Positions 4,111 to 61,400 of a stretch of DNA of 64,000 nucleotides are shown here, one piece after another. The stretch's first letter is position 1, and every line of letters begins with the position of its first letter. The position numbers were made by a program, and so were the translations under genes. Origin of the DNA: Azadirachta indica (Eukaryota; Streptophyta; Magnoliopsida; Sapindales; Meliaceae); the NCBI GenBank assembly GCA_022749755.1, contig CM040447.1:8020545-8084544 (forward strand), given 5' to 3'. The notes beneath the pieces are model-generated. The model worked only from the letters and a program-made list of their open reading frames with translations, was not told where the DNA came from and did not search any database.

Positions 4111-4802
4111 ATAAATTTGAAATTTTTGTTGTTTAATAAGGGTTTCTTATGGATTAGTCGTCTTATTTGTGTTTGTGAAAGTAATGTGAAGAAAGTTTTG
4201 GACTTTATGTATCGGTTAGAATGCCTAGTGTTTTTGAATATCATGGAATAGTTGAAGTATAATACATCTTTTATCGATATATTTCATTAATTACGCCACA
4301 AATTTTGTTGGTTGATAAGGGTTTTGTGAATTATTTATGGATTAATGTGGTTTATTTGCGTTTGTATTATGGGTTGTGAACTTTCTTAAGTAATATGATG
4401 AAAGTTTTTGGACTTTATTTGATTTGCACACAATTTAAGCTTTCGGCATACAATAAAAAGTTTGTAACTTAAAGCTCTGTGTTGTATCAGTCTTTAGAAA
4501 GTTCGGCGCTGATATTGGATGAAGTTGAGCTCATTCGCTGCTTGTGTATTTGATATGGCATTTTGTGTTTTTGTTGTATTTGTGTCTAGTAAATGTGTAA
4601 TTTATTTCTCTGGTTAAATGACATTGCAGGAGAAAGCTATACAGTAATACTTGAACTTTATTTTTCTTTTTGAAATTGAAATATAGTTTAACAAATGGGA
4701 GAACTGTTGAGTTCTATTTTTATCTTTATACAAGAGGTGGAAGAAATCCATAAATGTATAGGTACTACAAATATAGGATTATATATAAATGTTTAAGAAT
4801 AT
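4111..4802. other. Convergent 3' flanks
   Basis: This is AT-rich spacer between the uL23-like gene (+) and the NPH3-type gene (-). It contains an imperfect direct repeat: the phrase beginning gggttt and running through tttatggatta and gaaagtttt occurs at about 4140-4205 and again at 4318-4415. No gene is seen. Confidence 0.5.
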
Positions 4803-37382: not shown

Positions 37383-38030
37383 ATGGGAAGAATTCAAACT
37401 GGGAAGAGAAAAGGTCAATGGACTCCTGAAGAAGATGAAAAACTTACAACCTATATTAAAAAACATGGCGAAGGAAATTGGCAAGCGCTCCCAAAACCTG
37501 CGGGTATATATCACTTTGTTTTCTTTTTCATTTCTCTGTAACCGATGATTTCAATTTGGTAAATTTTGTTGTTTAATTGATTTCTTACAGGTCTTAACAG
37601 AAGCTGGAAGAGCTGTAGATTAAGGTGGATGAATTACTTGCGGCCTGATATCAAGAGAGGAAACTTTTCACCAGAAGAAGAAGAATTGATTGTCCAACTC
37701 CATTCCCTCCTCGGTGACAAGTAATTTACAGGCTTTCTCCAACAGTCATTTGCTATCGTGTATAAATTGGCAGCCCGTATTCGATTCTTACTATTTTGCT
37801 TTTTCAGATGGTCACTGATTGCAGGTCGCCTACCGGGAAGAACTGACAATCAAATCAAGAAATTCTGGCACATTCATCTGAAGAAGAAACTTATTCAGGC
37901 GGGAATTGATCCAGTGACTCATCAAAAATTCTCACAAGGACGAACTGACAACAATGAAATCAAGAGTTTCAATAGCCTTGGTGAACGGAAGGGGTTTCCG
38001 AGTCACCAACCAATCCAAGGGGAGTTGCAG
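37383..38030 (+). CDS. R2R3-MYB head of mosaic gene A
   Basis: Three exons (37383-37503, 37591-37720, 37808-38030) with the standard plant R2R3-MYB exon pattern: breaks inside R2 (phase 1) and R3 (phase 2). R2 has tryptophans in [15 protein letters not shown] and [15 protein letters not shown]3 has [39 protein letters not shown] and W in [20 protein letters not shown] after R3 is typical of the MYB superfamily. The conserved first cysteine of R2 (normally RCGKSC) is Ser here (NRSWKSC). The last 21 codons, NSLGERKGF to GELQ, align with the end of a CAMTA linker exon, so the MYB/CAMTA join is inside this exon. If the next intron is retained, the frame stops at 38166-38168, so a stand-alone MYB is also possible. 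Confidence 0.85.
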
Positions 38031-41000
38031 GTATGGAGATGGAGCAATATAACTTGCGTGGTACTATATTATTGGCATCAAATGTTTAAATTTCTGTCGC
38101 AGACTTTACTTTCCCATAGCTTCATGGCTTGCTTCATAGAAATAACTAATGAACTTAGGGTGTTTTAGTAAAAGTTTGTATTTAGGTTATTGCTCATTTA
38201 AACCTAATTTTTCCATTTGAATTATCTTTTGCGATAATGTTTTGGGATTCTATTTTCGGAATTTTGTTTCTTATTTCCCTCTGATGACAACAGGAATAGG
38301 TGTTTTGGGTGGAAAGTTATTCCAGCTCTGATAGTGCATAGCAGGTTAAGTATGTATGTGTAGTACCTTCGAGGATGGAGAAATCAGCTGTCTTTTATCT
38401 AAACTCTGTTAGCACATTATTATTATTATTCAAGACCTGTCTTAATTTTGATGCTGGGAAATTGTTAGGAATTACTGCATTTAGCGTGAGTTTGGTAGTG
38501 CTAATAAGCGCTTCATAAGTGTTAATTAGCACTTATAAAATGTTAAATCATGTTTGAGGTAAATTTCGATAAAAGTGTTTATTGAAAAAATTGTAGCACT
38601 TGAAATGATTATTTGATTAGAAAAAATTTAGTGTTTTCTCAAATTAGCACTTCAAGTGCTTAAAAGAGTAGCACTTGTACGGTTAATGAAAATTTAAAAA
38701 TTACATTTCTCAAATATTTAATTTTTTGGGTTAAATAGATTTTAATTTAGATGATTATATATATAAATAAATGATGGATTATATTAGATATTTGGAGATA
38801 TATTATTTGTTATATTTTTTCTTTCTAGATGAATAATTAATATTATTAAAATTGTAGTTATTTTTATAACAAAAATAAATATTTTTATTTTTTTTTAATT
38901 ATTGAAGTTCTAGTTATTTTCATAACAAATTTTTTATTCAATTTTTTAGAAATGTTATAAAACAAAAATGTTATATATACATACATATATATATATGTAA
39001 TATTTGTTTTCATTAAAAACATTGCTATATGGATATATTACTTACTTTGATATATGTCTATTTTAGTAATTTGTTAATATAAAAGTACTTTTTAGTTACA
39101 CCTCCAAACAACTAATTTAACACTAATAAGTACTTTTAAAGATTATTAACCAAACGCTTAAATGTTTTTTCAAAAACTGTTAAAAGAAAAAGTGCTAAAA
39201 AATATAAACACTAATTATTTTAGTAGTTATTTTTTAGCACTGCCAAACTGAACATTATTGTATTAGAATTTTAGCTAGAAAAGTTCTACAAGCCAACAAA
39301 TGTCTTTTACATGTCAGTATTCCAGCACTTGTACATAATTTCTCATTATTGCTTTCATTGTTATAAATTAATATTCAAGGATGGCTTACTTGTACATACT
39401 TCATTCTTGTAATATGTTAAACATTGTGATAACTTCACATCAATATACTTTTCATTAGTTAATTTGCTGGTTGCTGACACTTTATTTTGACAATTTGGGT
39501 GATAAATGATTTAATATGGTCTCAATGCAATTCATAAATTTTATATGTTAATTTTCAGCAGCAACTTATTTTAAATTCAATTATTTTTGTTTAGACTGTT
39601 CTTTTCCTTGTAAACAGACATTTGAAGATGATTCTTTACATTTATCCAACTTCCCCACGGATCAGAAGTTGTATTCAGATTCCACACATAATCTTTTTTC
39701 AACAGAACATCATGATGCATCTGTGCATGCTGCTGCTGCGGTACGAATACAAAATAAGTTCCTTAGTTGGAAGGGCAGAAAAGATTTCTTGATAATCCGG
39801 CAGCAAATTGTCAAAATTCAGGTTCATCTCAATTTTTGTTCTTTTTATTATCTCCCTCCCTTTATGAAATCAACCACTTGAAATCTAACTCATACTTTTT
39901 CTAAATGGAAGGCGCATGTAAGAGGTCATCAAGTGAGGAAAAACTATAAGAAGATAGTACAGTCTTTAGGAATTTTAGAGAAGTTTATCTGGCGTTGGAG
40001 GCGAACAGGAAGCAGTTTGCATGGACTTAAGTCAGAAGAACTCTCCAGGGGTGGTTTCAACACGTTAGATGCATCCTCGAAGGAGGATGACTTTGACTTC
40101 CTGAAAGAAGGCAGAAAGCAGAAAGAAGAAATGTTGCAGAAGGCCCCTGCCCGAGTGAAGTCCGTGGTTCAGAATCCTGAGGCAAGAACTCATTACCATA
40201 GGCTGCTGAACATTGTCAACGAGATCCAAGGAACAAAGGTAAATGGATTGGTGGATGAGCCCTTGATAACCATGATTCCTAGTCTTGGATGTATATTTTG
40301 GGAGTATCAAAAAGAATGTTTTAGCTCAGCTCAATTAAACATAAATTCCTAGCTCTGCCACTGTATGGAGTGTTACAAGTTGTTTGGTACATATTATTGA
40401 GATCATATGTTTAATTTCTGGGATCACAGACTTCACTTTGCAGTAGTTTTATGGCTGGTAGAAAGTCTGGAAAATTCTTTCTTCTTGCAAATTGCTCATG
40501 AACTTAGGGTGTTCTAACTGAAGTCTACTTAGGTTATTGCTGTTGCAAATTAATTTTATCATGTAAATTTGTTATACAGTAGTGTTTTGGGATTCTATTT
40601 TGGAATTATGTTTCCTATTTCTCATTGACTACGAGAAGAATTATAATTTGGTTGAAAACTTAAACCTTGATGTCCAGCTGTGGAAGGAAATCTTGGAAGA
40701 TTGTGCTCCAGGAGTTGAATCTCAGCATTTTCATCCACCATTTTCCTCAACTCAGCCTGACACTCTGGGAAACATTCCTAAACAAGCACCTGAAACACTG
40801 GGAGAGCTTTCTACCAACAGCTTTGGTGAATGGAAGGAGTTTGTATTGAACCTACCGATCCACGGGGAGGAGTTGCAGGTATGGAAATGTACAAATTGGT
40901 GGTATATATTATTGGCATCAAATGTTTAAATTTCTGAGATCACAATCTTTTCTTTCCCACAATTTCCTGGTTGGTAGAAAGTCCAGAAAATTCTTGCTTC

Positions 41001-43596
41001 ATACAAATTACTCATGAATCTAGGGTGTTTTAACTGAAGTCTTTAGTTAGGATATTGATGTTGACACCTAATTTTACCATTTAAATCTTTTGTATGAATG
41101 TTTTTTTGGATTCTATTTTTGGAATTACATTTCCAATTTCTTATGCATAATCTCTCATATATTTGGATTATTCGGTGGTCTCTACTCTTTCATTGTTAGT
41201 TTCTAAGAACTGCAGTTTTGTTTTCTGTAATTCCACACTTGAAAACAAGTCCAGTATTTGCAGGGCACAACTTCAACACAATTTGCTGATGTTGCGTCAG
41301 AAAGCTTAATGGATTACACCAATGAATTTTCTGAGGACGAGGTGAAACTTGTTTCAATTCAATGTTGAATGAATATTTAATTTTTCTTTTATTTACTAAC
41401 CAAAAATTATTTTATATTTAGATATTTAAGGGCAAAGAAGAGTTAATTGAATACACTCGTGAAATCGGTAGGAAAAAGGGTTTTGTGATTGTGACCAAGA
41501 GATCAGATTCTGGTAATGGTGCTCAAAGAGCAAGAATTACTTTTTGTTGTGAAAGAGGTGGACGGTACAGAAACACAGGAAAAGATAAAGGGGAAAAAGA
41601 AGAAACTACCAACACAAAAAAGTGTGCATGTCCTTTTGAATTAAAGGGCTATAAGTTGAATAAGTTGAGTAGTGATGATAATTGGATGTTAAAAGTGAAA
41701 TGTGGAGTGCATAATCACCCAATCACAGAACCTCGTGAAGGACGTTCTTGTATGGGAAGCTTGACAAAAAAGGAGAGACTGTTGGTAGAAGATATGTTCA
41801 AGAGTAAAATATGTACAAAAGACATTTTAAATACTTTGAAAAACAGAGATGTTAATAATGTTTCAAGAAGGAAACATATTTATAATGCACGCCAAAAGTT
41901 CAGGGTGAAAGAGAGGCATAAGGTGAAAGAGATGGGTGTGAGTTCAAACAACCCACTTAATTCCAATTCATTTAACAATTTCTTTCCTGCTGGGTTACAA
42001 CGGTACATTGATCACTGTAAAGATGTGGAAGCTGATGGTAATTGTGGGTTTAGAGCAATATCTGATTTGGTAGGTTTTGGTGAGAATGAATGGTTGCGAG
42101 TGAGAAAAGATCTTTTAACTGAGTTGAAATCAAATTTACAGGATTATAGGCGTCTGTATGGGAGCGATGAAAGAGTTAAGGAGTTGATTGAAGCTTTATC
42201 AAATATTGAGAGTCATCCAAGTTTGGATGGATGGATGACTATGCCAGATATGGGGCATCTTATTGCATCGGCCTATAATGTTGTGTTGTTTCACTTATCA
42301 ATGCAACAATGTCTCACCTTTCTTCCTCTTAGGTCAGTGCCGGTGCCTACAGATTCTCATAAAGAAATTGCTATTGGTTTCGTAAATAACAATCATTTTG
42401 TAGAGGTATAATCTTCTTTTCTTCTTCAGTTCTTATAATGTTTCCAAATTATACTAGATTTGCTAATGACAAATAATTTTATGCAGGTGTTCTTATTACC
42501 AGGTCATCCTGTTCCTCCTATAGCAACCAGTTGGTATAAATTTCGCCACTCCTGCGCCAAGGAATGGGAAAATGTATATATTTCTCACATACAACGTTTT
42601 AAAGAAATCATTGGTAACAATGTCGCTACCAATGAAATAATCGATATTGATAACAATTCCTTTTATGATGAGCCTGATGAGCTTGTGCATGCTGCTGCAA
42701 CACGAATACAAAACAAGTTCCGCAGTTGGAAGGGTAGGAAAGATTTCTTGACAATCCGCCAGCAAATTGTTAAAATTCAGGTTCATTTCTTGTTCTCCTG
42801 GTTTCCTGACTCCTTGAATTTTCTTTTTTAAGCATTTATCTTCTTCATATCTTTATTTTATCAACCTTTTTCCCTTGACTAAATCAACTTCTTGAGTTTT
42901 AACTTGATACCTTTATGAATGAAAGGCATATGTAAGAGGCCACGGAGTGAGGTGTTACTACAAGGAAAAGTCCGGTAGAATTTTGGATAAGGATATGTTG
43001 CATTGGAGACAAAAAGGCAGCTGTAGTGCAAACTCTTGCTCCCCGTCAAGTTCCCACACCTTTTCTCAAGGGTCGATGAGTATTGAGCAGCAACCAATTC
43101 ACTTAATTGAGAGAATAGATCGTCTTATCACTCGAGTCCGCCAAATCCAAAGCCGAATCCAAAGCCTAATCAATCCCCAACAACAGAAGGAACAAACTGC
43201 TCTTCTTAGTAAAAGATCATCTGTACAAAGGCAGAGCCAAATCATCAACTCTCTAAGCCCAAAAGTTATTCCAATGAAACATGTCAATGCTCAACCAAAG
43301 CCAACAAAGCTTTACAGAGGAGTTAGGCCAGGCAATTCGGGCAAATGGTTGGCAGAAATCACACTTCCTTGGAACAGAAGAACACGATGTCCGCTAGGTA
43401 CTTTTAATACAGCTGAGGAGGCTGCTTTGGCTTATGACAGAGCTGCTTATCGGCTAAGAAGAGAATCTGCCAGTCTCAGTTGCTGTGAAGAAACAGAAAA
43501 AGAGCCAGTTTTTACACAGAGTGGTGGAAATATGAAGCTTGATAATTATGAATCGGAGAGTGAATATTCTGACAGTGAGGTGGAGAATAATTCATC

Positions 43597-43627
<31 letters not shown>

Positions 43628-44453
43628 GATTATTCATCTGTGCCATTAGCATCAGCAGAAAGGTTCTCTTTTGTGTTAGATTGTTTCTTTCCTGTTGGAT
43701 TAAAACCATACATCTGTGACATTAAAGATGTAACAGATGATGGTAACAGTGGGTTTAGAGTAATAGCTGACTTAATGGGTTATGATGAGGATGGATGGCT
43801 GCAAGTAAGAAAAGATCTTCTAAATGAATTGAATTCAAATTTAGAGCATTATAGCCTACTCTATGGGACAGATGGGTCAAACGATAGAGTTAAAGAGTTG
43901 ATTCATGCTTTATCTTATTTTGAGAGTTGTCCTAATTATGATCAAGGGATGATTATGCCAGACATGGGACATCTCATCGCGTCAACCTATGATGTTGTGC
44001 TGTTTCACATATCATTGCCCCGATGTCTCACCTTTCTTCCTCTTCGATCAGTACCAATACCTACAGATTCTCGTAAACACATTGCTATTGGTTCTACAGA
44101 TAAGAATCATTTTGTTGAGGTACAACTTCTTCTTCTTCAGTTCTTGTACTGTTATTAACGAATTATACTAATTAAATTTATTAACTTCAACAAAATTTGT
44201 GTAGGTATTCTTATCACCGGATCATCCTGTTCCGCCTATATCACCTAGCTGGTATAAATTTCATCGTTCTTGTGCCAAGGAATGGAAAACCATGTATATT
44301 TCTCGCATGGAACATTTTAATAGAATCATCGGTTTTGGTGTGGCTATGAATGAAATGATAGATATTGGCATCAGGGATGATATTGATAGTGAAATGATAG
44401 ATAGTGATGATATCTTTTATTGTGATGATTCCTTGGATTTTAACTTTTTTTAA
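37383..44453 (+). CDS. Mosaic gene A, full model: MYB-IQ-FAR1-OTU-IQ-AP2-OTU
   Basis: Eleven exons can be joined without a stop: 37383-37503, 37591-37720, 37808-38030, 39618-39821, 39912-40238, 40636-40878, 41264-41341, 41422-42405, 42487-42780, 42926-44119 and 44205-44453, about 1348 residues. From the third exon on, every junction is phase 0. Approximate protein order: R2R3-MYB 1-158, CAMTA-type IQ 159-335, CAMTA linker piece 336-416, short Ser/Asp-rich exon 417-442, FAR1-type zinc domain then OTU 443-770, OTU end joined to an IQ exon 771-868, IQ/coil plus AP2 plus second OTU 869-1266, OTU end 1267-1348. If made, it would be a nuclear DNA-binding protein with calmodulin-binding and deubiquitinase-like parts. 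The single-protein reading is inference; it could also be several transcripts. The 40636 exon is the weakest, as its 5' edge looks intron-derived. The parts are listed separately. Confidence 0.5.
38031..39617 (+). other. CAMTA-derived intron of mosaic gene A
   Basis: This intron starts gtatgg and shares phrases with introns of the CAMTA gene at 61907 and of mosaic B: ggcatcaaatgtttaaat, gaacttagggtgtttt and cctaatttttcc. It therefore came with the CAMTA segment. It carries a 771-bp MITE at 38484. Confidence 0.75.
38484..39254. mobile_element. Tourist/PIF-Harbinger-like MITE
   Basis: 771 bp with inverted ends GCGTGAGTTTGGTAGTGC (left) and TGTTCAGTTTGGCAGTGC (right, reverse complemented), flanked by TTA on both sides (38481-38483, 39255-39257). 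A three-base TTA target duplication with a GTTTGG-type end is the PIF/Harbinger pattern. The corresponding places in mosaic B (near 48870) and the CAMTA gene (near 62660) lack it. Confidence 0.8.
39618..40238 (+). CDS. CAMTA-type IQ segment of mosaic gene A
   Basis: Two phase-0 exons (39618-39821, 39912-40238). The first holds [20 protein letters not shown], followed by [10 protein letters not shown]; the second starts [16 protein letters not shown] and continues [18 protein letters not shown], then [15 protein letters not shown]. These are the two IQ motifs and the following helix of calmodulin-binding transcription activators, which bind calmodulin. The CG-1, TIG and ankyrin parts of a CAMTA do not precede them. 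The first 11 or so residues of the segment (TFEDDSLHL) match a sequence at 62848 that lies in another place in the true CAMTA gene, so an internal deletion joined them. Confidence 0.65.
40636..40878 (+). CDS. CAMTA linker exon piece of mosaic gene A
   Basis: 81 codons in frame. [16 protein letters not shown] and the end [11 protein letters not shown] to GEELQ match the linker exon of the CAMTA gene (61690-61906). Its first residues derive from sequence that is intronic in paralogues, so the acceptor at 40635 is newly made or the exon is unused. It is followed by another copy of the CAMTA intron. Confidence 0.4.
41264..42780 (+). CDS. FAR1-type zinc domain fused to OTU (mosaic gene A)
   Basis: Exons 41264-41341, 41422-42405 and 42487-42780, all phase 0. 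The first is a short exon ([17 protein letters not shown]) also present in mosaic B. The main exon begins [16 protein letters not shown] and holds the FAR1/MULE zinc pattern: [17 protein letters not shown] and [11 protein letters not shown]. After NARQKFRVK it passes straight into an OTU cysteine protease domain: [13 protein letters not shown] loop (catalytic Asp and Cys; Cys codon 42043-42045), [13 protein letters not shown] and NNNHFVEV (catalytic His). The whole DDE transposase present in mosaic B is missing, so this is a deletion derivative. The third exon finishes the OTU ([15 protein letters not shown]) and then fuses within the exon to another IQ motif ([20 protein letters not shown]). 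Confidence 0.65.
42926..44453 (+). CDS. IQ-AP2/ERF-OTU segment of mosaic gene A
   Basis: Exons 42926-44119 and 44205-44453, phase 0. It begins with the end of an IQ exon ([14 protein letters not shown]), then a region related to RAP2.4-type (DREB A-6) factors: [16 protein letters not shown] and [17 protein letters not shown], leading into an AP2 domain at 43307-43480 ([20 protein letters not shown], then [19 protein letters not shown]). The usual RTRLWLGTF is RTRCPLGTF here, so one DNA-contacting Trp region is changed. A poly-Ser stretch from a (TCA)n repeat (43589-43628) follows, then a second OTU domain in which the catalytic Cys is Ser (codon 43748-43750, DGNSG). The last exon completes the OTU module and ends at a TAA at 44451. 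Confidence 0.65.
43307..43480 (+). other. AP2/ERF DNA-binding domain
   Basis: About 58 residues with the YRGVR, W-AEI and [17 protein letters not shown] motifs of AP2/ERF factors. It sits in the same open frame as the IQ and OTU parts, between them. Confidence 0.85.
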
Positions 44454-45382
44454 CTAAATTTTTGCTTGAAAAAAATTAGTTCCTTGTATGATCAATTATT
44501 CCTTTTTTTTTTTTTCCATTTTTATCTAAATAGGTATGTATTGAGCAAAAGAGACTGTGACATGATATCTTCTAAGATGCAAATATATTTAGTGAAGAAG
44601 GGATGCCTTGCCAGAAAATCTAGCATGCATTATCCTCCATATTTGTAACATGTTTTTGTTTTCTGAAATTGTTTTCTCGAATAGTCAGAATAGAACTTGC
44701 AGGTTCTACCAAAAATACATATATATTGAATCAAATGTCTATGGAAATTCAAGACTACCTTTTTCCAATTGAACTCAACTAAAATCCAATCCGAAGTAAA
44801 ATATACTTCTAAGGAAGGATTGGAGAAATCGACTCTAAATAAAATAAATAGAAATAAGCAACCAAGCTACATGGTAGTTATCCCAGAGCTCTGTAAAGAT
44901 AAAAGTTAATGATGAGTAAATAACATAGTAATTTTGGTAAATAATTTATTAGTCCAACTAAAATAAGTTAAGATATTATAATTTGTTATTAAATTAATAT
45001 TATATTGTTTAACAATTTTCTTTTAAACAAAAACAACATAAACTTTCATTTCGTAGAAGAAAGTAATACAATTTATAGATTTGTACTCATTTTAGCATGT
45101 TACATGCTAAAGAGACTAATTACAACAAACAACTAATTAGATTTTAAGTCTTCTAAAGAACATGGAGAACGTAAACTAACACCTCTCCATTTTGTGTTTT
45201 TTAATAATATTAACAAGATAATAAAGTATAAAACACAAACAATATATTTTAACCTGAAGCTTTCCTAAAAAATTTTTATCTAATGATGTTTTTGTCTTTT
45301 GGTCTAACTGGGAGCTTGAAGTTTTCTTTTCACTAGCCTAACTTTTAGCATGTTTATTTATCTAAAAAATAATAATAACAGT

Positions 45383-45428
<46 letters not shown>

Positions 45429-45638
45429 CACATACACATATACATATATGACTATAGTTGCTAATAAGCCTAGCCTAGAAATTAAATCATTAAGTTGAAG
45501 TTGCATAATAATTCCATTTTTTATGTAATCAAGCATCAAAGAAGAATACGTCGCCTTTTCTTAACAAATGAGATAAATTTTGATAAATTTATATAATTAT
45601 ATTCATTTTAACATGGCAATAATGTGTAAATAATATTT

Positions 45639-45647
<9 letters not shown>

Positions 45648-45715
<68 letters not shown>
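45648..45715. repeat. (TAA)n microsatellite
   Basis: About 22 uninterrupted TAA units. Confidence 0.95.
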
Positions 45716-45717
<2 letters not shown>

Positions 45718-45829
45718 TTAAAATTTACAGAAGATAGGGTATAAAGCAGACATTACAATAAAACTTCTAACTTTTAAATTAAATTATGTAAGTATTTAGA
45801 ACATTCTAAAAATTTAGGAGTAAAAAATT

Positions 45830-46570
45830 AAAAGAGTATATTACGTATCAGTTGGCAGTATTTTAATGTGTCTAGAGTAAAAAATTGATTTAAATAGTGT
45901 TGAAGGGCGTTTAGAGTAGAAAAGTATGCAAGATGTTTTCAACATTTTAACGGGTGTGTAGAGCAACATATTAATTTATCAAACGAGTGTTTAGAAGAAA
46001 AGAGTATTCAAAAGGTGTATAGAGTGAATTGATAGATTATAAAAGAGCAATTCCTATTCTTCAAACTATTTAACTACTATTTCTACCCTACACATCTACG
46101 AGGTAAATATTAAAAATTAATTTTTAGTCTATAAATTTTTTACAATTGTTAAAGCAGTTTTGGATACCGTTTTGCTTACACACCCATTTGATAAATTTTT
46201 AAAATCAACTTCTACTTATACACATCGTAAAAATAAAAGTAGTCTCGAGCACTCTTTTTCTCAAATGCCTATTGATAAATTTTGAAAATTAATTTTTAAC
46301 CTACAAAATCTTGTAAATGTTGAAATACTCTTAAATAGTAAATACTTTTTTACACTGCACGCCTATTCAATAAACTTGTAAAAATTAATTTTTTGGTCGA
46401 CGCATATTCTGTGCATACTTTTTTCTTCTATACACTCAATTGATACATGCAAGTTTAAATGAGAGAATGTTTGCGTAGTAAAAGCGTACGTGAGGCTGTG
46501 AAGAAAAACAATAATTTTTAAAATTTTATCGGATGGGTAGAGACGAGTACGCAAAAGGTGGATGTTGAAA
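45830..46570. repeat. Inverted array of short gtgtttagagta-type units
   Basis: Forward units (gtgtctagagtaaaaaattg, gcgtttagagtagaaaagta, ggtgtgtagagcaa, ggtgtatagagtgaatt) occupy 45870-46040. Reverse-complement versions (ctaccctacacatc, cttacacacccattt, tacttatacacatc, ttacactgcacgcc) occupy 46080-46440, and a last forward unit lies near 46560. Similar units lie upstream of mosaic gene A at 36600-37050. Class unknown. Confidence 0.5.
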
Positions 46571-46757
46571 TATTTAGGGGTGTCTAGAGTAGAAAGTATA
46601 ATTAATTATTTCTAAGGAGATGGGTGAAGGTGGTTGGTGGGAAGCGGCAAAGGTCAGTACACTGACCAAAATCAAAAGAAGAAGAGGCAGGGAAAGAGGA
46701 AGAAGATGACTCAACCCATAAAATGTCTTTTGCCTTCAGTCTCCGGTCATCATGGGA

Positions 46758-46765
46758 TATAAATA
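46758..46765 (+). promoter_or_regulatory. TATA box of mosaic gene B
   Basis: TATAAATA lies 68 bases before the ATG at 46826. At the matching place mosaic gene A has gtatcaaat, so this motif is not conserved between copies. Confidence 0.5.
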
Positions 46766-46825
46766 TATCTGCAGTTAGTGTTTGTTTGTACTGGAGGGAA
46801 GACAGAAATAGAAAGGAAGGAGAAA

Positions 46826-47459
46826 ATGGGAAGATTTCAAGCTGGGTTGAAGAAAGGTTTATGGACTCCTGAAGAAGATAAAAAACTTATCGCTTTTATT
46901 CTAACACACGGCGCTGGAAACTGGAGAGCTCTCCCAGAACTTGCAGGTTTTTATTTTTATTTTCATTGCTATCTAAACGATGATTTCAGTTTTATTAATT
47001 TTGTTGTTTAATTTGTTGCTCAAAGGTGTTAATAGAAGCCGGCAGAGTTGCAGATCAAGGTGGATGAATTATTTACGGCCTGATATCAAGAGAGGACACT
47101 TTTCAGAAGAGGAAGAACGAATAATTTTGTCTCTCTTTGCGAATATCGGCAGCAGGTAATTTGCATGCTTTTTGCAACACTCGGTTGCTATCGTATATAA
47201 AATTTGTAGCTTGTATTGTATTCAATTCTTACTGTTTTGATTTTTCAGATGGTCAATAATTGCAGCTCAATTACCGGGAAGAACTGACAATGAGGTTAAG
47301 AATTTCTGGAACACTCATCTGAAGAAGAAGGTTCTCGGTATAGCGGATTACCGAAAACTCTCAAAAGAAAGAACTGACTGTGATGAAATCAAGAACTTTG
47401 ACAGCTTTGGTGGACCGAAGGGCCCTTCGGGTCACCTAACCAGCCAGAGGGAGTCACAG
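46826..47459 (+). CDS. R2R3-MYB head of mosaic gene B
   Basis: Exons 46826-46946, 47026-47155 and 47249-47459, with breaks at the same positions and phases as mosaic gene A. R2: [41 protein letters not shown]3: [46 protein letters not shown]. The first conserved R2 Cys is again replaced (NRSRQSC). After R3 the exon ends with [14 protein letters not shown] to RESQ, which aligns with the CAMTA linker end, and is followed by gtatgg, the start of the CAMTA intron. The short region between R3 and the join has no known MYB activation motif. Confidence 0.85.
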
Positions 47460-50400
47460 GTATGGAGATGGAATCAGACAACTTGTGTGGTATATATTAT
47501 TAGCATAAGCGTGTAAATTTATTAGATCACAGACTTAATTCATGCCCATAGTTTCATGGTTGTTGGAAAGGGTAAAAGGTTCTTGCTTCGTGCTAATTGC
47601 TTATGAAATTAGAGTCTTTTAACCAGACGTTAAAATAGGGTGTTTCAGCTGAAGTCTAGGTTATTGTTATTGAAACCTAATTTCTTTTACCATTTATTTG
47701 AATTCTGCCACGTTACATTGGGTTAGGTATTAGCCAGACCACTTTCAGATCAAGCCTAATCGAAGTCCAGTCTGGATATCTACTCCCATGCATGGAGGGA
47801 GGGATGAACTCCAGTAATTAGAAAAATCTATTCCCACATGCACAGGGGAGAATCAAACCCCAACCTCAAGGTTGAGGCAGGGGAGGCGAGTGCCACTAAG
47901 TCAAATGGTGGTTCTCAATTTTACCATTGAATTTCTTATACTCTAATTTCTTGGCATCCTGTTTTTGGAATTTCATTTCCTTTTGACATCATTATAGCTG
48001 CAGTTTTATGTGCTGTTGCATGGTATTTTGTTGAGTAAGATAACCCCCTGATAGACCTTGATTCTCAATTCTTGGAGCATGACTTGGAAAGTTACGTTCA
48101 AGAAGTTGGATTGCCTTTTCCGTCATTTTCTTCAGCTCAGCCTGACCATCTGCAAACTGTTCCTGGACAAGGGCATGATATATGTGGAGATCGTCACATC
48201 TTTGTTGAATGGGAGGGGTGCCAGGTATGGAGCAATACGGCTTTTGTAATATATATTACTGGCATAAATAATTTTAAATTTCATATGAGATGGTACTTTT
48301 TGATGCCACAAACATTTTTTAGCCATTGTTTCTAAAGAATTTCACAAATACAATATATTACTTTTCCCCTCTTATTCATAATGTCTTACAATGCTACTAT
48401 TCATAGTGAAAAAAGAAAAGAAATATGAAAAGAAAAATGAAACATTTCATGATCTTAACTCTGATTCTTTTCATCTTGGGAAGCTATTAATTATGAATCT
48501 TATCTGTCTGCTGGTTGGTAGGAAGTCTGTGAGGTTCTTGCTTCATACAAAAACTTCTTGAACTTAGGGTGTTATAACAGAAGTCTGTACATAGGCTACT
48601 GCTTATTAGAACCTAATTTTTCCATATAAAAATGTTTTGCAATAACTTTTTGGGACTATTTTCGGAATACCGTTTCCAATTTCTCATTGACAACAACGGC
48701 AGTAGATGATTTGGGCGAAATTATTCTGGCTCTGATTATGGATAGCAGGTTAAGTAGGATGTATAGTAGCTTCAAGGATTGAGAAAATGAGCTGTCTTTT
48801 CGTCTTAAATTCTGCTAGCGCATTACTAATATAACAGAATCTTTTTGATGTTGTGGAAATGTTAGGACTGCTGTATTTATTGTATTAGAATTTTAGCTAG
48901 ATGAAGTTTTATGAGCTACAAGTATGTTACAAATCTGTATTCTGGCACTTATGCGTAACTTCTCAGTATAGGCGGATTACTTAGTGGTCTCTTTCCTCAC
49001 ATTCTTATAAATTAAATATATCCAATGCTAGCTTACCTGAGCATACTTTATGCTTGTAATAAGTTTTTGTTTTCTTTGTGGTAACTTCAAATCACTATAC
49101 TTTTCATAGGTTAATTGCTGGTTTGTGACACTGAATTTTAACAGTATATGCAACAATTTATTTAATATGGTCTCAGAACAATTAAAAAATATTATTTATT
49201 AATTTTTGAAATAGTATTGTTCAAATTCTATTATTCTTCTTCAGACTTTACTCTTCCTTGTAAACAGACATCTAAAGATGATTCTTCACATTTATTCAGG
49301 CTCAACACATGATCCTCATGGATCAGAAGTTGCATTTGGACTCAGCACATAATCTTACTTCAACAGCTCATCATGATGAAACTATGCATGCTGCTGCAAT
49401 ACGAATACAAAATAAGTTCCGTAGTTGGAGGGGTAGGAAAGATTTCTTGATAATCCGGCAGCGAATCATCAAAATTCAGGTTCATTTCACTACTTGTTCT
49501 CGTTATAATCTCTTTTCCTTGATGAAAACTTCTTTGATTGTAACTTATAACTTTTTTCTGAACGGAAGGCACTTGTAAGAGGTCACCAAGTCAGGAAAAA
49601 CTATAAGAAGATAATATGGTCTGTGGGAATCCTGGAGAAGAGTTTTTTACGTTGGAGACGAAAAGGAAGCAGTTTGTGTGGATTTAAGTCGGAAGCACTC
49701 ACTGAGGATGATCCCAGCATGTTCTATACATCCTTGGAGAGGGCTGACTCCGACTCCCTGAATGAAGTCAGAAAGAAGAAAGAAAAAGCAAGGTTGCAGA
49801 AGGGCCTTGCTCAAGTGAAGTCCATGGTTCAGTATCCTGAGGGGAGAGATCAAGGCCCATTTAATGATAATACTGTTGACAATAATTACCAAGGAAAGTT
49901 CTCAGTTGTTCCCAGGACGGATTTTATGTCACTGGCTGAAGCGGATAATAGTTGGGTTTTAAATGATGCTGGATTAACATATGAGCCCCAGAAAAACCTT
50001 GATTTCTGGTTTTCAGAGGATGTCTTGCAAAATTGTCATCAAGGAGTTGGATCTCAGACTTTTCCTTTGTTTTCTTCCAATCAGCCTGACAATCTGGAAA
50101 ACATGCCTAAACAGGGGCCTAAAATAGTAGGAAAGCTTTCTACCAATAGCTCTGGTGAATGCAAGGAGTTTGGGAGTTGCCTACAGAGCCATGGGGAGTC
50201 GCAGGTATTGAGCAGTACAACTTGTGTAGTAGATATTATTGGCATCAAATGTTACATTTTTTAAAACATAATTGCATGGTTGAAACAAGTTCATTATTGG
50301 CAGGGCCTGACTTCAACTCAATGCGCTAATGTTGCTTCAGAAAGCATAATGGATTACACTAATGAATTTACTAATGACAAGGTGAAATTGGTTTACAATT

Positions 50401-53351
50401 CAATGTTGAATGAATATTTGTTTTATGGTTTATTTCTTAACCTGAAATTATTTTATATTTAGAGATTTAAGAGCTTCTTGTTTATTTACTAACGTGAAAT
50501 TATTCCTACTTGTAGGTATTTAAGAGCAAAGAAGAGTTAATTCAGTGGACTCGTGAAATTGGCTGGAAAAATGGTTTTGTGATTGTGATCGAGAGATCTG
50601 ATTTAGGTACTGCTGGTGGTCGAAAAGCAAGGATTTCTTTTTGTTGTGAGAGAGGTGGACAGTACAGAAATAAAGGAAAAAATGGAGAGAATAAAAAAGA
50701 AAAGCAATTGAGGAACGTTGATACAAAAAAGTGTGGATGTCCTTTTACATTAAAGGGCCGTAAGTTGGGTAATGATGATAATTGGATGTTAGAAGTAGTA
50801 TGTGGAGTCCATAATCACCTAATTACAAAGCCTTTTGAAGGGCGTTCTTATGCAGGAAGATTGTCAAAAGAAGAGACTTTATTGTTAATAGATATGTCCA
50901 AGAGTATGGCACCTCCAAGAGACATTCTAGTGACATTGAAAAAAAGAGATGTTAATAATGCTTCAACAATAAAGCAAATTTACAATGCACGCCAAAGGCA
51001 TAATATGGTGATAAAGATGCCTGAAAGATCGGAGATACAACAATTGTTGAGTAAGTTATCTGAACACAAGTATATTAAATCGCATAGGAGCATTGATAAT
51101 TCCAAAATTATCAAAGATTTATTTTGGGCACATCCAGTTAGTATAAATATGTTGCATGCATTTCCACGTGTGTTGGTAATGGATACGTGTAAAACAAATA
51201 GATATAATCTTCTATTATTAGTGATTGAAGGAGTGACATCCACCAACATGACATTTGTTGTTGCTTTGGCATATCTTGAATCTGAGCGAGAAGATAACTA
51301 CATTTGGGCATTAGAAAGATTAAGAAGTTTTATGGATGATAATGCTTTACCTACGGTTATTGTTAGTGACAAAGAGTTGGCTTTAATCAATGCCATTGCA
51401 AGAGTATTTCCCACAGCTAAACATTTGTTAAGCAGATGGCATATAGCCAGGAATGTATTGACAAATTGTAAGAAATTGTTTGCAATAAATGAGATGTGGC
51501 AAAAGTTTAGAATGAGTTGGAATTTGGTGGTGTTGTCTTCAAATGAAGATGAATTTACTGATCGGCTGAACATTCTAAAGAAAGATTTCAGTGGTTACCC
51601 AGAAGCAATTGAGTATGTCATAAATACATGGTTGACTAATTATAAGGAAAAATTTGTTTCAGCATGGACAGACAAGATCATGCATTTTGGAAACCTGACA
51701 ATGAATAGGTATTATTTCATGTTCATTTATCATTTCATGGACTATTAATTTGAATTTCTTGTATGTTAACCAATTTGATTTAACAGGATTGGAAGTTCAA
51801 ATTCAATGTTGAAGAAGCATCTTCATTTCAGTCATTCTAATTTTGAGACATCTTGGGGAAAGATCCATTCTTTACTGGAGTTGCAACATACAGACATTAT
51901 AGCATCATTTGAGAGGAGTTTGAAGGTAGTGCAAGATCAATTTAAAACTGCTGAATTTGAAGAGCTTCAAGGTTTTATCTCTATGGATGCATTACATATG
52001 ATTCTCAGCGAGTTGAAGCGTGCTCATTCAATTGGTGTTGATGCACATACATGTGGATGTATCATTCGCCTCACACATGGTTTACCATGTGCTCATGAGA
52101 TTGCAGAATTTAAAAGAGAAAGTCGACCTATACCTTTGGAGAGCATTGATTCATATTGGAGAAAACTTGACTTGGTTCCTATTTCTAAGAAGCAAAAGAT
52201 AAATTCAGGTTGTGAACCAGTATTTGACTTGATTGCCAAACGCTTTGACAAGGTTGATGATGATACAAAGCAACACATTCTAAATAAGTTGACAGAAATT
52301 GCTAATGCAGAGTCTCCGCTTATAGAACCAGAAGCTAAGAAAGAAATACATGGTCGGCCAAACTCAAAAGGTGATTCATTTAAACCTCTTCTCCCATGTA
52401 CTTTTCAACTAATATTATCTGGATGAAGCAAACTGTTTCACCTATTTTACTCTTGCTACAGGTTTATCAATGATACCTACTGCCCAAGTGAAAAAGAAAA
52501 GGCAGTCAAAAGGAATGGTATTATGTTAAATTTATATTTGATTTAGTTGATTTGTTATATTTGGTCTTGTCATTCTTTTTAATAATTTTTTTTTAATTAT
52601 ATTATTTATAGGTGTATACAAACAAGAGGCTTAAGTCAAATAAATTTGCTTGTTTCTTTCCCGTCCGTTTATTGCCATTCATTCATCACATTAAAGATGT
52701 AATAGGTGATGGTAATTGTGGATTTAGGGCAGTAGCTGACTTAATGGGTTTTGGCGACGATGGATGGCTGCAAGTAAGGAAAGATCTGTTAAATGAATTG
52801 AATTCAAATTTAGAGCATTATAGGCTGCTATATGGTACAGGGGAGACAGACGAAAGAGTTAAGGAGTTGATTCATGCTTTAACTTATTTTGAGAGTTGTC
52901 CCAGTCGCGATCGATGGATGATTATGCCAGATATGGGACATCTTATTGCGTCAGCCTATAATATCGTACTGTTTCATTTGTCATTTCAACAGTGTCTCAC
53001 CTTCCTTCCTCTTAGGTCAATGCCGATGCCTACAAATTACCGAAAAGACATAGCTATTGGTTATGTAAATAACAATCATTTTGTAGAGGTATCACTTATT
53101 CTCTTCTTCAATTCTTATACTGATTTTATAAAATAGTACTCTATTTATTAATGATAACTAATTGTATACAGGTGTTCTTATCAGTGGATCATCCTGTTCC
53201 GCCTATAACAACCAATTGGTATAAATTTCGTCATGCCTGTGCTGAGGGATGGGAGACTGTATATATTTCTCGTATTGAGCATTTTAGAAAAATCATGGGT
53301 AATAATGTGGCTACTGCTGAAATAATAATTGATAGCAGTTCCGATGATTGA
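46826..53351 (+). CDS. Mosaic gene B, full model: MYB-IQ-linker-FAR1-MULE-SWIM-OTU
   Basis: Eleven exons join without a stop: 46826-46946, 47026-47155, 47249-47459, 49300-49479, 49569-50204, 50304-50381, 50516-51708, 51787-52370, 52462-52517, 52612-53088 and 53172-53351, about 1281 residues. Approximate order: R2R3-MYB 1-154, CAMTA IQ 155-214, second IQ plus CAMTA linker 215-426, short exon 427-452, FAR1 domain, MULE transposase and SWIM finger 453-1063, OTU 1064-1281. Splice phases agree at every junction, including the non-zero ones inside the transposase part. This is the more complete of the two mosaics and keeps the transposase. A transposase-derived regulator of the FAR1/FHY3 kind with an added MYB head is one reading; independent MYB and transposon-derived genes in the same orientation is the other. 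Confidence 0.55.
47700..47930. repeat. Inserted dispersed repeat in mosaic B intron
   Basis: This GC-richer stretch is absent from the matching intron of mosaic gene A. It includes gggagaatcaaaccccaacc and gagtgccactaagtcaaatg, phrases typical of widespread plant retroelement-derived repeats. The class (SINE-like or LTR fragment) is not determined. Confidence 0.45.
48045..48224 (+). pseudogene. Relic CAMTA linker exon in mosaic B intron
   Basis: The frame [20 protein letters not shown], then [13 protein letters not shown] and EWEGCQ before a gtatgg donor, matches the CAMTA linker exon. No acceptor gives phase 0 with the preceding MYB exon (the upstream frame meets a stop just before 48040), so it is probably skipped. 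Confidence 0.5.
49300..50381 (+). CDS. CAMTA-type IQ and linker segment of mosaic gene B
   Basis: Exons 49300-49479, 49569-50204 and 50304-50381, phase 0. Motifs: [79 protein letters not shown]. Within the second exon the IQ tail passes directly into CAMTA linker sequence: [17 protein letters not shown] and [20 protein letters not shown], which correspond to 61590-61760 in the true CAMTA gene. In a normal CAMTA these two parts are far apart and in the opposite order, so the exon records a duplication or fusion. The acceptor at 49299 differs from mosaic A because the older site (49267) would lead to a stop. Confidence 0.65.
50516..52370 (+). CDS. FAR1/MULE transposase with SWIM finger (mosaic gene B)
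   Basis: Exons 50516-51708 and 51787-52370 (junction phase 2), continuing into 52462-52517. The FAR1-type zinc domain has [20 protein letters not shown] and [11 protein letters not shown]. The MULE transposase core has [16 protein letters not shown] (first Asp, codon 51182-51184), [28 protein letters not shown] (second Asp, 51368-51370) and [17 protein letters not shown], where the usual Cys before Trp-His is Ser. An acidic residue in NEDEF could be the third catalytic residue. The SWIM finger [17 protein letters not shown] (52052-52096) keeps its C-x-C and C-x-H. No stop interrupts it. Mutator-type transposases and the light-signalling factors FHY3/FAR1 share this plan. No terminal inverted repeats of an element were found around it. 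Confidence 0.8.
52462..53351 (+). CDS. OTU cysteine protease domain of mosaic gene B
   Basis: Exons 52462-52517, 52612-53088 and 53172-53351. The OTU core is [20 protein letters not shown] (catalytic Asp, and Cys at 52717-52719), [29 protein letters not shown], and NNNHFVEV with the catalytic His. The last exon encodes [20 protein letters not shown] and ends in SSSDD. All three catalytic positions are kept, so it could act as a deubiquitinase-type protease. OTU domains joined to MULE transposases are known from plant transposons. It is about 80 percent or more like the two copies in mosaic A by eye. Confidence 0.78.
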
Positions 53352-53809: not shown

Positions 53810-54436
53810 TCACAGTAAATCAGCTTATAATGTTGTATTGTTTCGCTTATTATTGCAACAACGTCTTACATTCCTCCCTCTTTGGTAATTGCCTAAACCC
53901 TCCAAATTGTCGTAAAGAGATTGCTATTGGTTTCGTAAATAACAATCATTTTGCGGAGGTATGATTTTCTTTCCTTGTTTAATTCTTATATGTCTTCTGC
54001 AACCTATACAGGATTTATTGATGACAACCACTTGTATGTAGGTGTTCTTATTACCGGGTCATCCCATTCCTCGCATGGCAACCAACTGGCAAAAATTTCA
54101 TCACTCTTATGCAAACGGATGGGACATGGGTGTCTGTTTCTCGCATACAACATTTTAAAAAAGATCATCAGTGATGATGTGGCTATCAATGAAATAGTAG
54201 ATATTGACGAAGAGAATACTGGAACAAAGGAAGATGACCAGGATGAAGTTGAGGAGTTGGAGAAGAATGTGATGGAGGGAATGGATGTTAGGCAGCAGCC
54301 AAGGAAGTGCAACCATTGTCTAACCCACAGAACCCCACAGTGGATTAATGGACGATTGGCTCCATTGACTCACTCTTTGCAATGCATGTGGCTTGGAGCA
54401 AGGCATAAGTCGGTAGACTACTGCCAGAATATGTAG
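53810..54436 (+). pseudogene. Broken OTU copy joined to a decayed GATA-type zinc finger
   Basis: About 53817-53959 encodes a partial OTU core ([14 protein letters not shown], then NNNHFAE before a gtatg donor), with an in-frame TAA after FLPLW and a one-base shift before [12 protein letters not shown]. After a gtag acceptor the OTU end follows ([20 protein letters not shown]) with another shift near 54120. The frame then runs through an acidic stretch (KEDDQDEVEELEKNVMEG) into RKCNHCLTHRTPQWINGRLA, the first half of a plant GATA finger (C-x2-C, TPQW). The second half is split: TLCNACG-like codons lie in another frame at 54378-54398, and ARHKSVDY-like codons return to the first frame. It is a third copy of the OTU module, now dead, joined to a different transcription factor family. 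Confidence 0.65.
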
Positions 54437-58477: not shown

Positions 58478-61400
58478 ATGGCGGAAACTAGCAATAATCA
58501 ACTAGGTAATCAAATTTAATCTTCTTCTTTTCTTTCAATTTATTTTTTTTAATTTTACGGTTTAGCTTCATAATCAATGCAGATATTGGGCAAATACTGA
58601 TAGAAGCACAGCATAGATGGCTTCATCCACCTGAAATTTGTGAAATTCTTCGAAATTATCAGAAGTTTTATCTTGCTCCTGAACCTCCTAATAAACCTCC
58701 AAGTATGCTTTTTTCTTTTCTTTTAAATTTTGAATTTTCTTTTATTGTTTTGTATTTGCAGTGAAAATGCTAAACTGTTAGCATTTTTTTTTCTCCTTTT
58801 TTTCTCTTTTCCCGGAAGGATGGGTTGGCTTGATGATATATAGGAAATCATATCGAGAAATTTTTGTTGAACTGTGTTGAACTCTTAATGATGTTTGCTA
58901 TTTAAAGGAGTAATAAGTAAATGTGAATACAATAACTTATAACATTGAAGTTTGATTCTAATTGAAAATAAAATTTTATTTGAATAGATAAACTACGTTG
59001 ATTCTTGAAAAAAAATGAAAAGGCGGGCTTAATTATTAATATTTTGTGTAAGAATTTTCAAATATCATTTTGTTTTGTTTTCTGACTGCTCTTATTGATA
59101 TTAATCTTTCGAATTGAATTGTTTTTTTCTTTCTTTTACTCTTTTAGTTTCATACTGCGCTGAAATTTAATTTAATATTTTAATATTTTAATAGCAGTTT
59201 GTTTGTGATTTGGTTGTCGTTCTTCCATTTTTTTTTTTAAATAACTAAATTATTTAGCCGGTTTTGGATGAACTACTGCTAGTATCAGTTGTTTCACCCC
59301 AAAATTTGTCTTTTGAACTATTAGAACTACCCATATATAGGAACTTGTAAACCCATTTGTTTTCTTTGTCCTTTCATATGTCTTGCATCAGCTAGATCAC
59401 CTTGGTTGTCTGTATTTGCTTCTCTAGACTGCAAAATAGCTTGAAGGTGTAATTGGACTATGCTTTATCAATATCCATATATTTACCTATATAGAAAGCT
59501 ATTAACAATATATTGGCTGGACTTGCGTTTCTGGTTTCAGGCGGTTCACTTTTTCTTTTTGATCGGAAGGCGGTGAGGTGCTTTAGACGAGATGGTCATA
59601 ATTGGAGGAAGAAACAAGATGGAAAGACAGTAAAGGAAGCTCATGAAAGAATCAAGGTGAGCACCAAATTTATCATTTTTTTGAAGACACTACCAACTCT
59701 AAGTTGATTAAAGAGATTAAATAATCAGTGTGTGATGGTAAGTTTGTTATATGGTGTAGGATTCATTATCTTTAATCATGCATATTGATCCAAAGTATGT
59801 TCTTTCAGGCTGGGAGTATTGACGTGTTGCATTGCTACTATGCCCATGGAGAAGAGAATGAAAATTTTCGGAGGTGCAGTTATTGGATGCTTGAAGAGTA
59901 AGTCCTTGAAATTTCATTTGTTGGTGTTCACTGACATTAGCGTTTGCTGTATGCTCTCTATGTCTCTCTCTCTTGCCAACACTTGGAAATTTCCTTTTGG
60001 GTTTCTCTTTTCTTACCTACCTAATTGACCATTACTGCAGGGAACTATCGCACATAGTTCTTGTCCACTACCTAGAAGTAAAGGTTAGACCCTGTTCTAT
60101 CTTCTCTTTGTTTTTCTGTGCTTTGTCAGTCATCTGAACTTTAATTGCAAAGATATGGTTTGTTGGATACAGTTCAAGATGAATATATTATTATCCAACT
60201 TATCATGGTATTCCTCTAGGACTTAGCTTACTGTGTATAGGAACATGTTATCCACCATATCTTATTTCTCATCTTCTTTCATTGTCCCCATGTTGATAAG
60301 TTTAGCACTTTTCTAGTGGTTGTATCTTGATCCTCTCATCAATTGCAGTGCAAGGACTTTGATCTGGGAATTGTAAATTGCAAAGTAGATGTATTTGATT
60401 TTTTGATTTACTGTCTGACATTTTGGATTCAAATGCTTTAGGTATTTAGCTTTTTGTTTCATGATAGGACATTAAGTTGCTTTTTCTTTGGTTGATAAAA
60501 CAAACAAATTAGAGAAAGACAACCAAAGAGAGTGGTAATAGACAATTTTAAAACATAAAATCCATAAGTCCTCGTATAAAGGCTATGTAAGAAAGCATCA
60601 ATATTGATGTGTTGCATAAAGAAAAACACAGATGACAGAAAAGTGTATTTCCACTGTATTTTAAAAGGTTTTATAAGCCTCTAGTTATGGAGGAAAATCA
60701 ACAGTTAAAAATGATAATAATTCAAAAGTACAAACGGAGGTATTTACTTTCTTTCATCATTCAGTTGATTATTGCGGACTATATTTTTCATTGAATTCTT
60801 AGATTCTTGTGAATTAGCTGGTAAATTTTGAGTGATAATCATGAATATTGGAGAAGGATCTTCAAAATGTTTGTGATTTTCATTTGATTTTGTATAACAA
60901 ATCATCAATACTGATGTGTTATCTACGCTGGACTGAATCTTTCCTTCCAATTTGAATTTTTTTTTCTTCCAAGAATAGCTGAAATAAACTCATGCTATCA
61001 TGACCTTTGCAGTTCGTCACATATGGAGCCTCTTTTTGATATCATTATGGCTGCAGTTTTATTCCACCTAAGAGTCTTCTTATTTTGAGTCTTAGTTCCT
61101 GTCTTCCTTATATACATATTTCAGGGAAATAGGAGAAATGCTAACCGCATTAAAGTGGCCAAAGGAACTGCTCCATTTTTCCATGAAACTAAAGAAACTA
61201 CAACAAATTCTAAGGTACACAGTTACCAGGTGCCTTGGCAAAATACAGATACAACATTCTTCAACAGTGCTCAGATACCAAAGTATGAAGATGATGAATC
61301 AGGTGCATTGATGAATTTTTGTGATCTTATAAATGGGGATGATACTTTATGCAGTTTATAATAAACAAGCTAGTTCCAGATGCCGCTCCTTATTGATTTA

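Follow-up and report, generated by a model that had tools for sequence, protein, structure and literature searches.

Mosaic MYB, CAMTA and FAR1-OTU genes of a Meliaceae tandem array in neem as probable plant host-transposase fusion genes

In a stretch of 64,000 nucleotides of the neem (Azadirachta indica) genome (C8:8020545-8084544; hereafter the window), two adjoining genes on the plus strand, named A and B, combine R2R3-MYB exons, CAMTA-derived exons and a FAR1-OTU part. They are mosaic genes of a Meliaceae tandem array and are best taken as plant host-transposase fusion genes, a reading to which we assign a probability of about 0.65. The preliminary description of the window had proposed two neighbouring loci with R2R3-MYB, CAMTA-type IQ and FAR1-OTU (A) or FAR1-MULE-SWIM-OTU (B) parts, all joinable in one frame of about 1348 and 1281 residues, and the rebuilt exon chains bear this out. 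Gene A extends over 37383-44453 (plus strand, 11 exons, 1347 residues) and gene B over 46826-53351 (plus strand, 11 exons, 1281 residues); all introns are GT-AG, internal stops and frameshifts are absent from both, and the proposed junctions 38030/39618 and 50381/50516 were reproduced. The case for a single open MYB/CAMTA/FAR1/OTU chain is strong in A and moderate in B, where a shifted acceptor is involved. The original account of A was incomplete: its MYB, IQ and FAR1-OTU parts were recognized, but a second IQ piece, an AP2 domain and a second OTU with a Ser were missed. The parts of the two genes are as follows.

37383-37503, 37591-37720, 37808-38030, plus strand: gene A exons 1-3, R2R3-MYB (Pfam Myb 2.6e-32, joined protein)
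39618-39821, 39912-40238, plus strand: gene A exons 4-5, CAMTA IQ/calmodulin-binding region (Pfam IQ 5.9e-10)
40639-40878, plus strand: gene A exon 6, from the middle of CAMTA (matched in tblastn by Melia CAMTA P0120)
41264-41341, plus strand: gene A exon 7, 78-nucleotide linker exon (...MDYTNEF...) of the FAR1-MULE-OTU family, constant in length, frame and donor in the array
41422-42405, plus strand: gene A exon 8, one open exon with FAR1 directly onto OTU, without MULE and SWIM; DGNC present
42487-42780, plus strand: gene A exon 9, one open exon, OTU tail onto an IQ motif
42926-44119, plus strand: gene A exon 10, one open exon, IQ tail, AP2 (3.6e-9) and second OTU
44205-44453, plus strand: gene A exon 11, tail of the second OTU, then stop
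46826-46946, 47026-47155, 47249-47459, plus strand: gene B exons 1-3, R2R3-MYB (Pfam 3.6e-32, joined protein)
48040-48224, plus strand: CAMTA-middle relic in gene B intron 3
49300-49479, 49569-50204, plus strand: gene B exons 4-5, IQ region (Pfam IQ 6.9e-7)
50304-50381, plus strand: gene B exon 6, 78-nucleotide linker exon
50516-51708, 51787-52370, 52462-52517, plus strand: gene B exons 7-9, FAR1 (2.5e-7), MULE (3.8e-19) and SWIM-type CxCx(n)CxH
52612-53088, 53172-53351, plus strand: gene B exons 10-11, OTU domain (fold model and matches), then stop
53820-54412, plus strand: 3' of gene B, interrupted OTU tail, then a degenerate GATA zinc finger

The domain order is MYB-IQ-middle-FAR1-OTU-IQ-AP2-OTU in A and MYB-IQ-middle-FAR1-MULE-SWIM-OTU in B. 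Against a Pfam cut-off of 28.1 bits, FAR1 lies under it in A (23.5 bits) and above it in B (31.7 bits); Pfam found no MULE domain in the joined protein of A, and the CxCx(n)CxH of B is visible by eye without a Pfam SWIM match. The OTU domain was not detected by Pfam in either joined protein, even at E<=1, and its assignment is based instead on fold comparison, the fold having been found by a fold model together with the matches; in this family, C36 is nearly invariant and H156 invariant (28 sequences). The first OTU of A and the OTU of B contain DGNC and NNHF, that is, the catalytic Cys and His. The CAMTA-middle relic in intron 3 of B was excluded from the gene model, since no phase-0 acceptor fits it.

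Module searches over 134 kb revealed nine plus-strand units between 37383 and 120969 (about 84 kb; coordinates extend the window numbering, and adding 8020544 gives the C8 position). What had been presented as a tandem pair is therefore a pair only in that A and B adjoin; they are really two of nine units, among which C is founder-like and some sisters are broken. The seven other units are listed below.

58478-69385 (end C8:8089929), plus strand: unit C, CG-1-middle-TIG-ANK-IQ-middle-FAR1-MULE-SWIM-OTU, 18 exons
about 73572-78434 (C8:8094116-8098978, L054 and L059), plus strand: unit I, CG-1-middle-FAR1-MULE-SWIM, GC donor after the middle exon
84631 on, plus strand: unit D, MYB-middle-FAR1-OTU-IQ-AP2, GATA close by
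93504-102726, plus strand: unit E, MYB-middle copies-FAR1-OTU-IQ-AP2-OTU-GATA
105931-110437, plus strand: unit F, resembling the first part of A
111111-114431, plus strand: unit G, middle-FAR1-OTU-GATA
115510-120969, plus strand: unit H, ordinary CAMTA

Unit C unites a complete CAMTA with a complete FAR1-MULE-SWIM-OTU, with 1893 codons and a coding length of 5679 nucleotides to TGA, of which the window holds only the 5' part (58478-64000). In A, B, D, E and F the CG-1 end is replaced by R2R3-MYB exons, and the MULE-SWIM body, which B, C and I contain, is absent from A, D, E, F and G; no OTU match was found for unit I in the module searches. Among the mosaics, A, B, C and E are open, as is H, the plain CAMTA. 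For unit E, two rival first MYB exons were obtained, at 93504 (with Melia P0021) and at 91796 (GC donor, with P0022), and the alignment to P0021 contains one stop, located in the GATA extension. Units E and G have better GATA copies than that behind B, located downstream of their OTU, as does Melia P0021.

The pieces are joined without splicing at several places, because the breaks between them fall inside open exons. In gene A this applies to MYB and the end of a CAMTA-middle exon (exon 3), to CAMTA exons 9 and 11 (the chimeric exon 4, in which the start of exon 9 is joined to the IQ of exon 11), to FAR1 and OTU (exon 8), to OTU and IQ (exon 9), and to IQ, AP2 and OTU (exon 10). Elsewhere, IQ2 passes into the CAMTA middle within exon 5 of B, the last CAMTA exon into the middle region within exon 12 of C, and the extreme end of the OTU tail into GATA at 53939-54436, a frame that takes in only the last part of that tail and is interrupted upstream.

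The MYB-CAMTA joint of A has CAMTA sequence on both sides. Exon 3 at its 3' terminus and intron 3 at its beginning are homologous to CAMTA-middle exons and the introns that follow them (z of 12.7-22.3 for the exon end and 3.5-32.1 for the intron, against eight middle exons and with mononucleotide shuffles), and the acceptor and start of exon 4 match exon 9 of the canonical unit H, so that intron 3 has both ends of the native CAMTA intron 8. In view of this CAMTA-middle homology, which runs from exon 3 into its intron, a model with the MYB exons as separate neighbours was dropped. The intron was widened partly by an inverted-repeat element of 759 nucleotides (38490-39248), which has imperfect inverted ends GTTTGG[T/C]AGTGCTAA and is flanked on both sides by TGA. 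As intron 3 of unit F is 809 nucleotides shorter, this element was probably inserted once A and F had parted, or was lost from F.

On the FAR1 side, the 78-nucleotide linker exon has identical length, frame and donor in all eight FAR1 units, with a middle exon upstream in each. Phase 0 was found for the CAMTA introns after exons 8, 9, 11 and 12 and for both linker introns of C; exchanges can stay in frame because the introns involved, those of CAMTA-middle, IQ and linker exons, are of phase 0. At three dispersed FAR1 copies (L069, L070 and L072), none of the frames of the stretches examined contains the linker motif.

The array was compared with Melia azedarach using spliced alignments to proteins that are database annotations, all from one contig of 16,922,981 bases; the protein searches covered the best 120 each of 609, 348 and 7818 matches. 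Unit C is 81.6% identical to P0002 over 1886 residues and 18 exons, with 0 stops and 0 frameshifts. The alignments of B with P0001 (88.9% over 948), of A with P0229 (79.0% over 575) and P0220 (79.2% over 317), of E with P0022 (78.1% over 1031) and of H with P0120 (93.8% over 1094) are likewise free of stops and frameshifts. Neutral simulation of the neem-Melia distance gave 19.5 expected stops for C, 6.4 for B, 8.0 and 4.3 for A, 12.8 for E and 4.0 for H; these have to be halved, to about 10 for C, 3 for B, 4 for A and 6 for E, because the Melia frames were chosen as open ones and only about half of the changes lie on the neem side. The aligner moreover favours stop-free paths, and the stop-free state is weaker evidence than the simulation implies.

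The search for the domain order in relatives, which the preliminary description had recommended, was partly successful: the joints of A, C and E are present in Melia annotations among the matches listed, but none of these has the whole order of A and none the MYB-IQ joint of B. P0220 has the MYB-IQ joint at the identical residue to A, and P0229 reads IQ-middle-FAR1-OTU; P0002 is of the founder type, as C; P0021 and P0022 read MYB-middle-FAR1-OTU, with an additional GATA in P0021. In a tree of MYB domains, one group unites neem A, D and F with Melia P0076, P0227 and P0220 (0.977) and another unites E with P0021 and P0022 (1.000). On the basis of these groupings and of the fused Melia annotations, the joining of MYB in A and E seems to have happened before the two genera separated. 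Melia P0076 itself reads MYB-middle-IQ and continues into a second MYB93-like protein at the place of AP2 and OTU in neem A, which represents either a further exchange or an annotation merge.

Selection was estimated as the ratio of nonsynonymous to synonymous substitution rates (dN/dS; NG86) between paralogues within the array, so that pre- and post-fusion time are mixed in every value. For the OTU domain, all ten pairs among A, B, D, E and F lie at 0.19-0.40, and no upper bound reaches 0.65. MYB gave 0.39-0.61 (A-B 0.47, 0.27-0.86; A-E 0.40, 0.23-0.66), the MYB tail 0.40-1.22 and FAR1 0.49-0.75. Between C and B, values of 0.32 for FAR1, 0.36 for MULE, 0.42 for SWIM and 0.30 for OTU were obtained, with upper bounds below 0.7, and 0.63 (0.39-0.96) for IQ and 0.76 (0.43-1.45) for the middle region. 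Between C and H, they were 0.29 for CG-1, 0.35 for TIG, 0.34 for ANK, 0.47 for IQ and 0.70 (0.40-1.37) for the middle region; between E and the broken G, 0.48 (0.29-0.99) for OTU, 0.61 for FAR1, 0.73 for GATA and 0.92 for the middle region. Seven IQ rows involving D or E were left out (no IQ exon exists there, and the forced alignment gave dN above 1), as was, for the same forced alignment, the C-B row of TIG/ANK; the E-G linker yielded no dS. Constraint is clear on OTU, moderate on MYB and weak on IQ and the CAMTA middle.

A number of observations weigh against fusion genes; they are set out here together with the alternatives. According to the first, only the CAMTA-middle/FAR1/OTU half, together with unit C, works, and in A and B the MYB-IQ part is a passenger, expressed as a short MYB protein or silent. 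We consider this rather unlikely, although it should be taken seriously and can apply to B while A, C and E are fusion genes. The 88.9% identity of the C-terminal half of B is to P0001, which begins within the CAMTA-middle exon, and P0229 begins within the IQ exon; P0220 has no part beyond IQ, and its opening residues correspond to MYB exon 1 read out of frame. For the MYB half of B and its MYB-IQ joint no Melia counterpart was found among the matches listed, B stands without a Melia sister in the MYB tree, and, the native CAMTA acceptor being out of frame, a shifted acceptor is required for exon 4, which makes the MYB-IQ joint of B apparently weaker than that of A. Retention of intron 3 would give MYB-only proteins, ending after 45 further codons in A and 18 in B. 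The upper bound of dN/dS lies below 1 in six of the ten MYB pairs and five of the ten FAR1 pairs; IQ gave 0.63-0.76 in three usable pairs, none of which excludes 1, and the CAMTA middle (0.48-2.89) and the 26-codon linker (0.27-1.48, mostly spanning 1) look relaxed or undecided. On the other hand, the MYB domains of A, D and F and that of E are matched in fused Melia annotations, so that those joints appear older than the genus split, and the MYB values for A-B and A-E given above stay below 1 throughout.

The second alternative, that MYB, CAMTA fragments and a FAR1-OTU gene lie side by side as separate genes or relics, that the joined frames result from exon guessing and that the array is mostly pseudogenic debris, is in our view improbable. 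Part of the array is decaying: against their best queries, D shows two stops (one in OTU, the other where the aligner overran the exon-3 donor), F four frameshifts (one with P0229, two with P0220), and G two stops and two frameshifts. In A, the DGNC of the second OTU reads DGNS, with Ser replacing the catalytic Cys, and at most the first OTU could be used. Melia P0229 and P0001 are annotated without a MYB part, the whole order of A was not found in any single Melia protein listed, no neem or Melia transcript across a joint was found among the matches listed (the Melia proteins being annotations), and soybean members of the family bear unrelated names and domains (aquaporin, ING1), maybe through annotation merging. 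Side-by-side genes are however difficult to reconcile with breaks inside open exons, with the native CAMTA ends of the MYB-CAMTA intron of A, with a unit C whose 1893 codons form an open frame in neem and whose Melia partner is open along its length, and with the constraint on the OTU, MYB and MULE parts. That the array is a mobile element with captured host exons is very improbable: Pack-MULEs are a known route of host fragment capture and B, C and I do contain a MULE-type transposase body, but the copy number is low (15 matches to the FAR1 part in 280.8 Mb and 21 contigs, eight of them in the array), the units follow one another in tandem at a single place, near a CAMTA and an ordinary MYB93-like gene, and the only inverted pair given by a repeat scan of 33000-57000 with arms of at least 40 nucleotides is a simple-repeat palindrome (no search was made for shorter repeats at the termini of whole units).

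If A and B are host-transposase fusion genes, a CAMTA-FAR1-MULE-OTU fusion of the unit C type is the likely founder. A low-copy FAR1-MULE-OTU gene would have come to lie downstream of a CAMTA gene; recombination within the last CAMTA exon would then have removed the stop and supplied a CAMTA-middle donor, giving the phase-0 join to the linker exon seen in C; and after tandem duplication, breaks in exons and introns would have swapped parts, with MYB for the CG-1 end, loss of MULE-SWIM and gain of AP2 and GATA. The structure of C and the exchanges are observed, and it is the order of events that we infer.

We likewise infer from the sequences that one full-length polypeptide may be made, with DNA binding, calmodulin binding and ubiquitin cleavage. 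It would act as a transcription-factor-like protein, binding DNA via MYB and perhaps FAR1, tuned by calmodulin through its IQ segment and bringing an OTU deubiquitinase to the sites that it targets. Its transposase part would be a scaffold or DNA-binding body without working as a transposase. For B, transposase action is improbable, since its first MULE motif, presumably a marker of that function, reads MDTCKTN, as in Melia P0001, in place of the MDCTYKTN of C. If expressed, the array would be a natural series in which a tamed transposase joined plant transcription factors and then swapped their DNA-binding ends, with a founder-like unit (C), donor-like genes (CAMTA H and the ordinary MYB93-like gene), working candidates (A, B and E) and broken copies (D, F and G) at one place. 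It would also provide a DNA-targeted OTU protease, a combination absent from the literature searched, and a test bed for fusions acting on ubiquitinated chromatin or transcription factors.

The ordinary MYB93-like gene (L061), with its own stop, lies beyond the array at C8:8160230. CAMTA and MYB53/93-like matches were also obtained on contigs of equal size in Nyssa (P0146, P0148 and P0256, with nearby locus tags 005523, 005528 and 005531) and in Liquidambar (P0139 and P0251); because of the shared contig size and the close Nyssa tags, MYB and CAMTA may be old neighbours. Upstream of the array, at 998-6778 and 28686-29677, ordinary genes are found: a nucleotide-sugar transporter, ribosomal protein L23, an NPH3 family member (minus strand) and a mitochondrial carrier.

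Among known systems, the FHY3/FAR1 (FRS) family consists of domesticated MULE transposases, according to two papers (PMC13306707, PMC8599713). B and C share with it the FAR1 region, the MULE body and a SWIM-like motif, whereas the array genes add a C-terminal OTU and an N-terminal CAMTA or MYB, and A lacks MULE and SWIM; the terms fusion, OTU, chimer and CAMTA were looked for in the review PMC13306707 and do not occur. With CAMTA (unit H and Melia P0120), A and B have in common the middle region and the IQ/calmodulin-binding exons and introns, but they lack CG-1, TIG and ANK and have the parts permuted; unit C does have CG-1 exons. R2R3-MYB proteins (MYB53/92/93-like) agree in both repeats and in introns at the two places where ordinary L061 has them, whereas L061 has its own stop and exon 3 in the array continues into a CAMTA exon.

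The C-terminal family is also annotated with other host domains among the matches listed, namely SET-AWS at the N-terminus in Prunus, Rosa, Rubus and Phlomoides, FHA in Actinidia, AP2 in Rubus and NLP-OTU in Actinidia. The host domain is N-terminal in all seven fusion proteins scanned (P0011, P0013, P0032, P0033, P0004, P0030 and P0129), and P0004, P0011 and P0033 have a recognizable linker-like sequence, which is weaker in P0030; the motif as written occurs in 19 of 339 retrieved matches. These SET-, FHA-, AP2-FAR1-MULE-OTU and NLP-OTU proteins resemble the array in their C-terminal family and differ in their host domains; they are annotations only, and no shuffled array is known for them. 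Three Glycine soja members of the MULE family are named phosphatase, ING1 and aquaporin (P0028, P0075 and P0091), possibly owing to annotation merges. Because soybean members carry such unrelated names, the wider pattern is a lead; no title or abstract in the literature searched describes such a fusion (most subscription papers and bioRxiv lay outside the scope). We tentatively suggest, at somewhat less than even odds, that FAR1-MULE-OTU is a recurrent fusion partner across flowering plants, that its phase-0 linker exon may be a landing site for unrelated host regulators (CAMTA, R2R3-MYB, FHA, SET-AWS and AP2; NLP with OTU alone), and that one Meliaceae fusion may have given rise to a domain-shuffling array making deubiquitinase-tipped transcription factors with exchangeable DNA-binding ends.

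The closest comparison is with host-transposase fusion genes, which have reportedly arisen through transposase capture in vertebrates. As in those genes, a host regulatory domain and a transposase-derived part are joined via splicing into a transcription-factor-like protein, and host domain and transposase-derived domain stand in one open frame, A retaining only FAR1 of the transposase. The array differs in that a plant FAR1-MULE carrying an OTU protease takes the place of the partner, and in that several host domains (CG-1, MYB, IQ, AP2 and GATA) were exchanged.

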